DNA from: an uncultured Pelagibacteraceae bacterium
Lineage (GTDB): Bacteria > Pseudomonadota > Alphaproteobacteria > Pelagibacterales > Pelagibacteraceae
Length of the DNA: 64,000 bases
NCBI GenBank assembly: GCA_902616675.1
Contig: CACMTV010000001.1
Location: 62,001 to 126,000 of the forward strand
Direction of reading: 5' to 3'
Both the position numbers and the translations under genes were made by a program. Positions 58,799 through 63,869 of the stretch are shown here, one piece after another (the stretch's first letter is position 1; every line of letters begins with the position of its first letter). Below the pieces are notes generated by a model, which did not search any database, was not told the DNA's origin, and worked only from the letters and a program-made list of their open reading frames with translations.

Positions 58799-59476
58799 TT
58801 AACACAATGAATTTAAAAAAGGCTGCAAATTCGCAGCCTTTTTTTTTGAAACAAATAAACATGCTGTCGAGTTTAATATCTGTCCATCCTTAAGTACTCT
58901 AAGATTATTATCTGCCAAAGTTTTTCCTGTAGATGTTATATCAGTTATAATTTCTGAAGATCCTATAAAAGGATAGGTTTCAGTAGCGCCTAGGCTGGAT
59001 ATTAACTTATATTGAGTTATTCCTTTGGAAAGTAAAAAATCGTTAGTTAAGTTCGGATATTTAGTTGCTACTCTTAATCTTGTATTTCTTTTAGATCTAA
59101 TATCAAAAGATACTTCTTCCAGATCAGCAATTGTTTGAACATCTATCCAATCATCTGGAACAGCAACAACTAAATTAGCTTTTCCAAAATTAAGTTTATT
59201 TTTTATAATAATCTTATCTCGCAAATTTTTTTCAGATTCATTTAGAAGATCTAGGCCTGATATTCCAAGATCGAGGGTACCATCGCCCAGTCTTTGAATT
59301 ATCTCCTTAGCATGAAGATAAATGATTTTTACATTTGGTTTATTTTCAATAGTTGCAAAATAATTTCTCTCTTTGTCACTTTGTAATATTTTAAAACCAT
59401 TTTCTTCAAAAAAAGATATTGCTTTATCTTTTAATCGACCTTTACTTGGTAAACCTATGGTAATTTCATTTTTCAT
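58799..59476 (-). CDS. hisG: ATP phosphoribosyltransferase, short form
   Basis: First step of histidine synthesis, joining PRPP and ATP. This is the short HisG (225 residues), which lacks the C-terminal regulatory domain and needs HisZ, encoded by the next gene upstream. Signatures are GLPSKGRLKDKA at the start, DLGISGLDLL, and the PRPP loop region EIITDITSTGKTLADNNL. The terminator of groEL is embedded in its last codons. It overlaps hisZ by 4 bp. Confidence 0.95.
   Translation of the reverse strand: MKNEITIGLPSKGRLKDKAISFFEENGFKILQSDKERNYFATIENKPNVKIIYLHAKEIIQRLGDGTLDLGISGLDLLNESEKNLRDKIIIKNKLNFGKANLVVAVPDDWIDVQTIADLEEVSFDIRSKRNTRLRVATKYPNLTNDFLLSKGITQYKLISSLGATETYPFIGSSEIITDITSTGKTLADNNLRVLKDGQILNSTACLFVSKKKAANLQPFLNSLC
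58815..58847 (+). terminator. Intrinsic terminator of groESL, inside hisG 3' end
   Basis: GGCTGC (58821-58826) and GCAGCC (58833-58838) pair around a 6-base loop, preceded by six A and followed by nine T. Because the A and T runs flank both sides, it can work in both directions. On the minus strand it lies within the last codons of hisG (encoding the KKKAANLQP end), before its stop. Confidence 0.88.
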
Positions 59477-60510
59477 ATATTTTTAAGATTTATTGCTGCT
59501 CCCACAGCTGGAATATTTTTTTTTGCTCCTAAACTTTTTAATAAACCATCATATCGACCGCCTCTTGCGATTTCTTTTTGCTCTGAAAAAACTTCAAATA
59601 CAATTCCAGTGTAATACTCTATATCTCTTCCAAAATTTGAAATAAAGTTTATGTCTACTTTAAGTTTTTTTAAGTTTTGGATTGATTTAAAATTGCTAAA
59701 AGTATTTTTTTTAAGATTATTTTTTTTTGTAAAGTCTGAAAATTTTTTTTCTAATTGAGACAATTTACAATTTATTTTAAGAAACGATCTTATAATTTTA
59801 ACAATTTTTTTTCCTTCACTAAATGATCTTGGGTCTTTTATTTTTTTATCAAATCTATTTAATATTTCTAATATTGATCTTCCTGCAATAACTTTGTTCT
59901 GCTCCATCTTTTTCATTTCATAAAATCTTTTCTTATCCGTATCAAAGGTTTCAGCATCAATATCTGAATTTTTCTCTAATCTTTTTAAAAGATCTTCAAA
60001 ATATTTTGGTCTCCAAAAATGTCGTATTAATCTTAATTTCCACCTTTCAGGCATATCAAGTGAGTTAATTAAACTTTTAAACAGACTTACGTCCCCCACT
60101 TTAATTCGGATTTTTTTACTTTTAATCTTTTTTGCGGAGTTTAAAATTGTTGTAATAACTTTAAAATCGTCTTGTATTTGATTTTTGGAGCCAAAAATTT
60201 CTATTCCTAATTGGTCATTTACTAAATCAGAATTTTTTTTATCTGATCTTCTATAGGCCTGGCCCGAGTAGTAAATTTTCGATTTAGTTTTTTTTTGTAA
60301 ATAATTGATGCAGGATGCTACTGTAAGATCAGGTCTTAAACACATGACTTTTCCATTTTTACTCTCAAAAGTAAGCATTGAACTTCTGAATTTTTCACCA
60401 GATCTCTCAATAATATATTCTGAGTCTAATAATACGTCTGGTTCAGACAACAAAAATCCGTTGTTTCTAAAAGTTTTTATAATTAGTTCAGATAATTTTT
60501 TTGATTTCAT
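59473..60510 (-). CDS. hisZ: ATP phosphoribosyltransferase regulatory subunit
   Basis: A HisRS-like protein without tRNA charging that activates short HisG and senses histidine. It shows a degenerate class II synthetase fold: LRPDLTVASCINYL, YYSGQAYRRSDKK and the C-terminal ARGGRYDGLLKSLG with AVGAAINL. Length is 345. It overlaps hisS by 23 bp and hisG by 4 bp, so the three are tightly coupled. Confidence 0.9.
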   Translation of the reverse strand: MKSKKLSELIIKTFRNNGFLLSEPDVLLDSEYIIERSGEKFRSSMLTFESKNGKVMCLRPDLTVASCINYLQKKTKSKIYYSGQAYRRSDKKNSDLVNDQLGIEIFGSKNQIQDDFKVITTILNSAKKIKSKKIRIKVGDVSLFKSLINSLDMPERWKLRLIRHFWRPKYFEDLLKRLEKNSDIDAETFDTDKKRFYEMKKMEQNKVIAGRSILEILNRFDKKIKDPRSFSEGKKIVKIIRSFLKINCKLSQLEKKFSDFTKKNNLKKNTFSNFKSIQNLKKLKVDINFISNFGRDIEYYTGIVFEVFSEQKEIARGGRYDGLLKSLGAKKNIPAVGAAINLKNI

Positions 60511-61822
60511 TTGCTAATTCTTTAATTGCTATTGATTTTTCTTCACCTGAAACAAGATTTCGTAAAGTAGGTTTGCCTGTTTTTATTTCATTTTCACCAT
60601 AAAGAATAACTGCTGGTGATTTTATTTTATTTGCATATTCCATCTGTTTTTTTAGTTTTCCCTCTCCGGGATAAATTTCTGCACTAATATCTGCAGATCT
60701 TAAAACCGTTTGTAAACTAATATATTCTTTCATTAAATTTTTATCGAAAATACAAATGACAATAGGTTTTGATTGCTTAACTTTGAACTCTTTTTTTTGC
60801 AACAACGCATAAACCAACCTATCCAATCCTATAGAAATACCTGTGGCAGGAGCATCATAATTACCAAAATTATTTACAAGGTTATCATATCTGCCCCCGC
60901 CCCCGATTGAACCAAACTGAATAACTTGTCCTTTGTTATTCTTAACGTCAAAATTAAGACTCACTTCAAAAATTGGACCTGTGTAATATTCCAATCCCCT
61001 TATTACAGAGGGATCAATTTCAAAATTATTGAAATTATAGTCACTAAATATTTTTAGGATTTCTTTTAGATCTTCTGTTTCCGACGATTTATTTTTTAAT
61101 TCCTTTTCTATAAAATCTATATTTTTTGAACTTAAATTTGCTCCCTTGGTATAATCTCCAGATTTATCTTTTCGCCCTTCTCCTAATAATTTTTTTACTT
61201 CACTCCATCCTAGCCTATCAATTTTATCTAATGCTCGCAGAGCTGTAAGTTTTTGTTCGATACCGTCTAATTTGATTTTTTTAAATATTTCTTCTGTAAT
61301 CTTTCTAGAAGAAATTTTTATAATATATTCTTTTTTATTTAACCCACAATTCTCAAGTATTTCTGAAATCATAACACATAATTCTGCATCAGCTTGTAAA
61401 CTTTTAGTTCCAACAAAATCTGCATCAAATTGTAAAAATTCTCTAAATCTTCCTGGTCCAGGTTTTTCATTTCTCCAAACTGTCCCAAGTTGATATCTTT
61501 TAAAAGGTTTTGGAATTTCTAAATAATTTTTTGCTACATATCTAGCTAATGGTGCGGTCAAATCATATCTTAGAGATAGCCACTTTTTTTCATCTTGAAA
61601 AGAAAAAACACCTTCATCTGGTCTATCTTTGTCTGGTAAAAATTTTCCAATACTGTCCGTGTACTCGAAGCTTGGAGTTTCGAGGTACTGAAAACCGTAC
61701 TTGATCATAACTTTCTTAATATTAGAAATTATAAAATCACGTACGAGTAATTCTTTTTCTTGTCTATCAACAAACCCCAATGGAAGTTCTTTTGAGGGTT
61801 TATTTTTTTTATCTTTCGTCAT
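60488..61822 (-). CDS. hisS: Histidyl-tRNA synthetase
   Basis: Charges tRNA-His. The catalytic blocks are SLRYDLTAPLARYVA (motif 2 region), WRNEKPGPGRFREFLQFDADFVG, GLEYYTGPIFEV and GGGGRYDNLV. The sequence around FLQFDADFVG is the alphaproteobacterial type rather than the E. coli type. The open frame reaches 61852 through the tRNA gene; the ATG at 61822 is chosen, 3 bp after the tRNA-His end (444 residues). Confidence 0.95.
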   Translation of the reverse strand: MTKDKKNKPSKELPLGFVDRQEKELLVRDFIISNIKKVMIKYGFQYLETPSFEYTDSIGKFLPDKDRPDEGVFSFQDEKKWLSLRYDLTAPLARYVAKNYLEIPKPFKRYQLGTVWRNEKPGPGRFREFLQFDADFVGTKSLQADAELCVMISEILENCGLNKKEYIIKISSRKITEEIFKKIKLDGIEQKLTALRALDKIDRLGWSEVKKLLGEGRKDKSGDYTKGANLSSKNIDFIEKELKNKSSETEDLKEILKIFSDYNFNNFEIDPSVIRGLEYYTGPIFEVSLNFDVKNNKGQVIQFGSIGGGGRYDNLVNNFGNYDAPATGISIGLDRLVYALLQKKEFKVKQSKPIVICIFDKNLMKEYISLQTVLRSADISAEIYPGEGKLKKQMEYANKIKSPAVILYGENEIKTGKPTLRNLVSGEEKSIAIKELANEIKKII

Positions 61823-61825
61823 TTT

Positions 61826-61902
61826 TGGTACAGCAGGGTGGATTCGAACCACCGACCCCTAGTTCCACAAACTAGTGCTCTAACCAGCTGAGCTACTGCT
61901 GC
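61826..61902 (-). tRNA. tRNA-His (GTG anticodon)
   Basis: A 77-nt cloverleaf on the minus strand: acceptor GCAGCAG with CTGCTGT, D stem GCTC/GAGC, anticodon stem CTAGT/ACTAG with loop TTGTGGA (anticodon GTG), T arm GGTGG-TTCGAAT-CCACC, discriminator A and encoded CCA. The first pair is a G-U wobble and there is no encoded G at -1 (the base is T). It sits directly before hisS. Confidence 0.96.
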
Positions 61903-62490: not shown

Positions 62491-63594
62491 TTAGTATAGC
62501 AAAGCAATAATTGAGGCAATTATAGCCAGGCCTAAAGCAGATAAAACATATTTGTTTTTTGTAAAAATTCTTTTTAATTTTAGAGATGTGGGCTCTTTAT
62601 ACTCTAAACCAGTTTCTCCTTTGACAGATGATTTAGTAAAACCACCTTCTCTACCAATTTTAAGAAATTTATTTTTTCTGTGATCAAATATTTCCTCTGA
62701 ATTCATGCTTTCAAAAAAATTTAAATTTTCTAAAATGGTATTTTTTATACTATCAGCAATTTCATCATGATTTCTATGTGCTCCGCCTAAAGGTTCTGGA
62801 ATAATATCATCTATAACTCCAAGCTTAAGAAGGTCTTGAGCTGATAATTTCATTGCTTCAGCAGCTTCTAAAGATTTACCAGGATCTCTCCATAAAATTG
62901 AAGCACATCCCTCTGGAGATATGACTGAGTAAATTGAATTTTCTAACATTATTACTTTATTAGAAGAGGCAAGTGCAATTGCACCACCTGATCCGCCTTC
63001 GCCAATTATCACAGAAATATTTGGAACTCTAAGCGACATGCAACATTCAATAGAGTGTGCTATTGCGGAGGCCTGACCTCTCTGTTCTGCGCCTATTCCT
63101 GGATAAGCACCTGGTGTATCTATAAAAGTAATTATAGGAATTTTAAATCTGTCTGCTAGCTTCATTAATCTTATACATTTTCTGTAACCTTCCGGACTCA
63201 TCATGCCAAAATTTTTTTCTATTCTAGTATTTAAATCTTCTCCCTTTTCTTGACCAATTACTAAAACAGATTTGCTATCAATTAATCCAAAACCAGCGGT
63301 CACAGAATGATCATCACCAAAATATCTATCTCCTGCTAAAGGAGTAAAGTCTTTAAATATTTTTTTGATATAAAAACTTGCTCTTGGTCTATCCTCATGT
63401 CTTGCAACTTGAGTTTTTTGCCAACTATTTAAATTTGTATAAATATTTTTCAATTTTGTATTAATTTGATCCTGCGTTGATTTAATTTTATTTGTATCAA
63501 CCTCTGATATACTCTCGTTTCCAGGACTTTTTAGAAGTTCCATTTCATCTTCTAATGTTTTTATCTCTTTTTCAAATTCTAGATAGTTTTTCAT
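62491..63594 (-). CDS. accA: Acetyl-CoA carboxylase carboxyltransferase alpha subunit with C-terminal membrane helix
   Basis: AccA and AccD transfer the carboxyl group from biotin to acetyl-CoA, the entry to fatty-acid synthesis. Core marks are KIFKDFTPLAGDRYFGDD, DTPGAYPGIGAEQRGQ and GEGGSGGAIALA. The catalytic part ends near residue 315, as in E. coli (319 total). Here about 48 more residues follow, closing with YVLSALGLAIIASIIALLY (349-367), a clear hydrophobic helix. This could anchor the enzyme to the membrane. Its gene is divergent from glcB. Confidence 0.94.
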   Translation of the reverse strand: MKNYLEFEKEIKTLEDEMELLKSPGNESISEVDTNKIKSTQDQINTKLKNIYTNLNSWQKTQVARHEDRPRASFYIKKIFKDFTPLAGDRYFGDDHSVTAGFGLIDSKSVLVIGQEKGEDLNTRIEKNFGMMSPEGYRKCIRLMKLADRFKIPIITFIDTPGAYPGIGAEQRGQASAIAHSIECCMSLRVPNISVIIGEGGSGGAIALASSNKVIMLENSIYSVISPEGCASILWRDPGKSLEAAEAMKLSAQDLLKLGVIDDIIPEPLGGAHRNHDEIADSIKNTILENLNFFESMNSEEIFDHRKNKFLKIGREGGFTKSSVKGETGLEYKEPTSLKLKRIFTKNKYVLSALGLAIIASIIALLY

Positions 63595-63704: not shown

Positions 63705-63713
63705 ATTAAAAAA

Positions 63714-63869
63714 TACGGGAGAGACTACTTTAATGTAGCGCCGAAGGAGCAACCACCCCGGAAACTCTCAGGCAAAAGGACCGTGCAAATACAATTCTGG
63801 AAAGAGACACGTTCTCACCGAAGGAGTAACTCTCTCAGGTACCAATACAGATGGGGTGAGATTGGTGCT
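63714..63869 (+). promoter_or_regulatory. Tandem glycine riboswitch controlling glcB
   Basis: Two glycine aptamers in series. Aptamer 1 runs about 63714-63785 (P1 ACGG with CCGT; conserved GCGCCGAAGGAGCAA and CTCTCAGGCAAAAGGACC). Aptamer 2 runs about 63796-63851 (P1 TCTG with CAGA; CACCGAAGGAGTAA and CTCTCAGGTACCAATAC). The downstream gene is malate synthase, starting at 63872, not a glycine cleavage gene. Two competing pairings are visible. UCUCACC of aptamer 2 (63813-63819) can pair with GGUGAGA (63855-63861), which includes the Shine-Dalgarno-like GGTGAG. Also 63838-63846 can pair with 63861-63869 next to the start codon. Confidence 0.95.

Follow-up and report, generated by a model that had tools for sequence, protein, structure and literature searches.

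A predicted C-terminal membrane anchor in the acetyl-CoA carboxylase alpha subunit of the Pelagibacterales (SAR11)

The stretch of DNA analysed in this study (64,000 nucleotides from an uncultured Pelagibacteraceae bacterium, hereafter the window) carries accA as a single intact ORF in the ORF list of the 64-kb sequence, and the encoded protein continues well beyond its catalytic domain (Table 1). AccA takes part in the first committed step of fatty-acid synthesis and, together with AccD, forms the carboxyltransferase, an alpha2beta2 assembly. Divergent from accA, a glycine riboswitch aptamer was detected on the plus strand (window positions 63706-63793; Rfam RF00504, 69.6 bits), upstream of an ORF that is cut by the window end and whose start, as we take it, resembles malate synthase. 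Three adjacent ORFs occupy positions 58799-61852 on the minus strand and are presumably hisG-like (58799-59476), hisZ-like (59473-60510), and, for the third adjoining ORF, hisS-like. The listed GTG start of the hisS-like ORF (61852) falls within a tRNA gene (61829-61902), so its true start probably lies further in.

Table 1. Window coordinates of accA and of the parts of its product
Feature	Position	Strand	Basis or remark
accA (acetyl-CoA carboxylase carboxyltransferase subunit alpha)	62491..63594	-	ATG-start ORF, 367 aa, C-terminal extension
Catalytic AccA domain, residues 4-314	62653..63585	-	Pfam match, structure alignment, Foldseek
Linker, residues 315-335	62590..62652	-	Low-confidence in AlphaFold2 model
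Lys/Arg-rich helix, residues 336-346 (positive-inside flank)	62557..62589	-	Helix in AlphaFold2 model
C-terminal hydrophobic helix, residues 348-367, predicted tail anchor	62494..62553	-	Kyte-Doolittle, AlphaFold2, position profile

The membership of the window protein in the AccA family is plain, and carboxyltransferase activity is predicted for it. Pfam PF03255 matched residues 4-314 with 441.5 bits (cut-off 23), and among the NCBIfam models the protein scored 435.9 bits against NF004344 (cut-off 357) and 392.5 bits against TIGR00513 (cut-off 319.3), also exceeded the curated cut-off of NF041504, and reached 275.3 bits against the equivalog model NF008971, below its cut-off of 406. The Pfam and NCBIfam models place the domain end at residue 314-315, and the AccA chains of Staphylococcus aureus and Escherichia coli (2f9i and 8uxz) align with the window protein up to residue 314. 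In a Foldseek search, the best match of the modelled protein was the E. coli acetyl-CoA carboxylase (ACC) structure 8uz2, with a TM-score of 0.89 by target length, and further top matches were other bacterial carboxyltransferase structures. The GEGGSGGA motif, which we take to be a glycine-rich motif with a role in acyl-CoA binding, is invariant from column G198 to column A205 in 22 AccA sequences. Among genomes of the window's family, AccD was matched in 30 of 31 and the biotin carboxyl carrier protein (BCCP) in 28 of 31, the window's own genome included in both cases; just one of the 31 AccD searches and nine of the 31 BCCP searches exceeded the cut-off, which for AccD is a curated one. The SAR11 protein thus shares the whole domain (residues 4-314) and the fold with the AccA of E. 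coli and S. aureus, but differs from known AccA by an added tail of 53 residues with a hydrophobic helix.

The first-pass annotation had put the extension past the catalytic part at about 48 residues; the extension is real, and its length is 53 residues (315-367). The 19-residue hydrophobic end described in the same annotation was borne out, with a Kyte-Doolittle (KD) mean of 2.31 across the last 19 residues (349-367). This is the one segment with KD>=1.6 in the protein, it finishes at the last residue, and neither a second transmembrane (TM) segment nor an N-terminal signal was found, the catalytic domain starting from residue 4. Two helices, 336-346 and 348-366, were modelled in the tail by AlphaFold2 from a 30-sequence alignment, with a mean pLDDT of 78 over residues 341-350, 89 over 351-360, and 91 over 361-367; values of 54-65 were obtained over residues 311-340, the part with the linker. 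One AccA of Candidatus Fonsibacter, submitted as its own query, gave the same terminal helix (348-367), the 28 sequences of this model being common to the alignment of the window model. TM segments were judged throughout by KD means and by AlphaFold2, which works without membrane modelling. The Pfam and NCBIfam models of AccA do not cover the tail; no other NCBIfam model matched the window tail, and no Pfam domain was found in it or in one tail from the second family of the order. Bacterial C-tail-anchored proteins consist of a cytoplasmic domain and a single C-terminal TM segment with a positive flank. SAR11 AccA, with its predicted anchor, agrees with them in each sequence feature tested, but as a central metabolic enzyme it differs from these proteins in kind.

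The tail was found throughout the sampled Pelagibacterales. An AccA match was obtained in 132 of the 147 genomes of the window's family, including all 53 good-quality ones, and all 132 genes, followed to the stop codon, encode a tail of 43-57 aa with a KD19 of 1.89-3.54. All 30 AccA genes compared from the second family of the order also carry a tail (53-59 aa), so that the two families together show tails of 43-59 aa with a KD19 of 1.88-3.54 (162/162 genes), and the best hydrophobic window finishes 0-6 residues from the C-terminus in every one of them. A further 17 AccA genes of the second family have open frames of 369-382 aa, as judged by frame length alone. The tail is also present at 18 of 18 named loci of Pelagibacteraceae, Pelagibacterales, and Candidatus Fonsibacter. 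No AccA match was found in 15 of the 147 family genomes, nor, in a separate search, in the family genomes G210, G261, and G268 (90-95% completeness); the second family includes five genomes with just a weak AccA match and one (G182) for which no position was listed. The tail is unseen in these genomes. The first-pass annotation had named two grounds for doubting the extension, its absence from close relatives and a nearby stop codon error. The opposite of the former was found in the 162 genes, and the latter is unlikely because relatives at 83-91% identity to the window AccA share a tail of equally 53 residues.

Outside the order, and within a sampling confined to Pseudomonadota, the tail was absent from 150 alphaproteobacterial AccA loci (genome G467 being counted twice) and from 48 other proteobacterial loci taken from among the matches listed. 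The outsider loci were chosen to include the best matches, the longest open frames, lower-scoring matches, and small genomes. In 120 of the alphaproteobacterial loci and the 48 others (again among the matches listed), 1-36 aa follow the domain, and just two of these tails were long enough to score (KD -0.45 and -0.15). The remaining 30 alphaproteobacterial loci, which include four class genomes with N-terminally short matches that frame length alone did not exclude, have no 19-mer above 0.99 in their final 60 residues, and all 30 are without the tail. In the outsider loci compared, AccA ends 0-36 residues past the domain and has no hydrophobic segment. Likewise, 62 of 62 other named loci lack the tail; one of the named loci, L369, is cut at its 5' end. 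In the class sample, 265 genomes from outside the order had an AccA match (E<=1e-40). By hand reading, the frames of its genes outside the sequences compared leave no room for both the domain and a tail of the SAR11 kind, with the exceptions of G439 and G510, in which the gene is cut. Two non-SAR11 AccA (L398 and L333) carry polar tails of 28 and 36 aa, respectively, with no hydrophobic helix, that of L333 being Lys/Arg-rich.

The small-genome subset bears on a rationale offered by the first-pass annotation, namely that anchoring may suit a very small cell by placing the first step of fatty-acid synthesis near phospholipid synthesis. This would be a reason for the anchor and no alternative to it, and the trait does mark SAR11, a group known for its small cells. 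However, of 53 alphaproteobacterial genomes of <=1.4 Mb that lie outside the order and gave an AccA match (hand count; genome size is a mere proxy for cell size), 43 have an AccA that could be followed to its stop codon, none of them with the tail, eight have open frames of <=338 aa that could not hold it, and in two the gene is cut. The tail as a general small-genome trait was rejected on these grounds. Moreover, diffusion across a sub-micrometre cell should be fast, so that proximity alone would gain little. The small-cell rationale came out weak from this comparison and is unlikely to be the reason for the anchor.

The conservation of the tail is physical rather than residue by residue. In 157 distinct tails, Lys/Arg and Asp/Glu each account for 0-1% of residues at every position 1-16 from the C-terminal end, and Lys/Arg peak at 40-64% at positions 20-22. 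An almost uncharged C-terminal end with such a Lys/Arg peak is the pattern of a terminal transmembrane helix flanked by positive charge on its cytoplasmic side. Over the 12 residues that precede the hydrophobic window, the net charge is positive in 131 of 132 tails of the window's family and in 30 of 30 of the second family; at least one charged residue lies within the best window in 30 of 132 and three of 30 tails, respectively. Shuffling of the tails yielded KD>=1.8 in 13% of 32,400 draws and such a segment <=6 residues from the C-terminal end in 3.1% of draws, whereas all 162 real SAR11 tails have one there, which is more than chance would give; the real tails are related and hence no independent trials. 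Over the last 20 residues, mean identity is 21% for the 6211 pairs within the window's family and 14% for pairs that span the two families, and the last residue is highly variable (L, N, F, S, Y, I, V, A, and others).

These patterns bear on two other functions that a hydrophobic C-terminus may have. The helix may be a soluble assembly element that packs on AccD, on AccB/AccC, or on another AccA and crosses no membrane; the two tails of each carboxyltransferase tetramer could pair, and the linker may be long enough for the helix to fold back. However, a specific contact should conserve residues, and the last 20 residues of the tail reach 21% identity where the catalytic domain reaches 69%; the Lys/Arg belt at positions -20 to -22 fits the positive-inside rule instead. 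Since hydrophobicity is kept and the residues are hardly kept, a lipid-facing helix is favoured over a protein contact, and the assembly element appears very improbable indeed. Alternatively, the tail may be a degradation signal for a membrane protease that sets AccA turnover and forms no stable anchor, in the way that a hydrophobic C-terminus may act as a protease signal. Such a signal does not require a helix of about 19 residues that is nearly free of charge and positively flanked, and the last residue of the tail varies widely, which together make a degradation signal a very unlikely account.

The tail also behaves as coding sequence under selection. The median dN/dS of the tail is 0.22 (304 usable pairs, 303 of them below 1) and that of the domain 0.036 (246 usable pairs), as measured on pairs of 86-99.5% domain identity that share ancestry; the tail is far less constrained. 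It is therefore a real and selected, though loosely constrained, part of the protein. An origin by frameshift, loss of a stop codon, or decay of the gene end would make the extension an artefact, but 162 of 162 SAR11 genes from many assemblies carry it and it is under purifying selection. An assembly or frame error was rejected on the same two grounds, and the chance that the extension is artefactual is close to nil. The membrane anchor proposed by the first-pass annotation is well supported on sequence grounds, the hydrophobic helix being terminal, positively flanked, under selection, and spread across the order. In the Pelagibacterales sampled, the tail is very probably a true C-tail anchor, one that would fix AccA to the inner membrane.

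With regard to its origin, all 26 tail-bearing AccA fall on one side of a single branch in a tree of 113 AccA domain sequences trimmed of their tails (SH-aLRT 78 for this branch, quick search), which is consistent with, but no proof of, one gain before the split of the two families. The 3' neighbour of accA differs between the window, where it is presumably a cold-shock-like gene, and the Pelagibacteraceae locus L356, where we take it to be a secA-like gene, and the tail is present in both. Because the neighbour changes and the tail stays, read-through into a specific downstream gene was rejected. At L356, accA and the convergent secA-like gene overlap by 6 bases (L356:5093-5098), and at L361, L367, and L368 a long opposite-strand ORF lies near the accA end. 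A fusion with a small membrane gene 3' of accA was also considered and rejected for the loci surveyed. These 26 loci included 20 non-SAR11 ones, one of which (L372) has 36 bases left, and no small same-strand hydrophobic ORF with an ATG start was found directly 3' of accA in those. No donor gene for the tail was found among the 26 loci.

Within the window's own genome (903 kb, 72% complete), a sample of 402.7 kb composed of the window and 20 further stretches contained 390 naively called ORFs of at least 100 aa, and just three of these have exactly one TM-like segment located <=10 residues from the C-terminus. They are AccA and two ORFs of 113 and 116 aa, AccA being the sole one over 116 aa. 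In the sampled part of the genome, tail anchoring of large proteins is no general habit. The partner proteins lack a comparable end: no hydrophobic C-terminal end was found at 30 AccD loci of the family (maximum KD19 of 0.90 within the final 60 residues) or at 28 BCCP loci (maximum 0.99), and the notion that AccD or BCCP is likewise anchored was rejected. An internal 19-mer slightly above 1.6 occurs at two AccD loci, L451 and L459. The AccD of three genera of the window's family (g3, g13, and g14; loci L457-L461) is unusually diverged, with 114-142 bits against TIGR00515, compared with 222-317 bits for the other listed genera; of the five genomes concerned (G013, G016, G002, G025, and G014), four have a normal AccA and G014 has no AccA match. 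In family-f70 Alphaproteobacteria with 0.9 Mb genomes (G357 and G476), the AccA frame extends to about 585 aa. One of these (L340:1171-2922, from G357) is an AccD-AccA fusion with the accD match at residues 19-286 and the accA match at 263-570, and neither it nor its counterpart L339 from G476 has a hydrophobic tail.

Membrane association of this subunit has precedents in plants and in E. coli. The plant AccA homologue alpha-CT is without a predicted TM domain, and CTI proteins keep it at the inner envelope of the plastid; its docking attenuates fatty-acid synthesis, and the alpha-CT bait comprised residues 420-769 (PMC7712654). The plant alpha-CT/CTI1-3 system resembles the SAR11 case in that an AccA homologue is docked to a membrane via a noncatalytic C-terminal extension, but it needs a separate TM protein, and a large coiled coil is predicted for the extension (PMC7712654). 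In E. coli, AccA is bound by YhcB, a protein of the inner membrane, when the cells enter stationary phase; YhcB has been proposed to sequester it, restraining fatty-acid synthesis, and AccA is also proteolysed (PMC12977641). Here too, AccA is the ACC subunit bound by an inner-membrane protein, but the TM protein is a separate one and the association depends on growth phase (PMC12977641). AccA is accordingly the subunit bound in both systems. In SAR11, the TM segment lies within AccA itself and not in a partner of the CTI or YhcB type, although another docking protein may be present as well; PF06295 was the family searched. This YhcB family was matched in none of 41 Pelagibacterales genomes, the window's own included, and in none of 142 class genomes above the cut-off (two weaker matches), and the E. 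coli positive control worked in both searches. The proposal that the tail compensates for a YhcB lost in SAR11 was rejected as stated, because the class sample is likewise without YhcB. By analogy, the SAR11 tail may be a built-in version of the CTI/YhcB-type membrane association, given that plants and E. coli dock AccA and that the YhcB family is unmatched in the order. No account of a membrane anchor on AccA, be it of SAR11 or of another bacterium, was encountered in the portions of the PMC literature covered, a library without preprints and most subscription papers.

The actual insertion, topology, and effect of the tail we infer as follows. The catalytic part of AccA would stay in the cytoplasm, and a flexible linker and a positive helix would lead to a single transmembrane helix, with which the protein ends (N-in topology). 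As the carboxyltransferase is an alpha2beta2 assembly, each enzyme would carry two anchors, and the tail-less AccD would be carried along. The purpose of the tail may, tentatively, be to set the site or the rate of malonyl-CoA production relative to the membrane, a suggestion with perhaps one chance in favour for every two against. More doubtful is the further idea that ACC is a permanent membrane enzyme and that the anchor regulates it, responding to the membrane in which it sits and adjusting the initiation of fatty acids to what the membrane needs, in a lineage that does without YhcB as a docking protein. A lipid-facing regulator of this kind would show a kept physical signature and a drifting sequence, as the tails do.

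The predicted result is a membrane-localised acetyl-CoA carboxylase with a built-in anchor. Few cell lineages on Earth are as abundant as SAR11. That the anchor occurs in every member of the order compared, and that AccA is the sole large protein with one in the 403 kb of genome sampled, suggests that the location of ACC matters enough for selection to act on it. A built-in anchor would be a third solution beside the separate docking proteins of plants and E. coli, and the question of why ACC should be at the membrane becomes testable by adding or removing one short tail.
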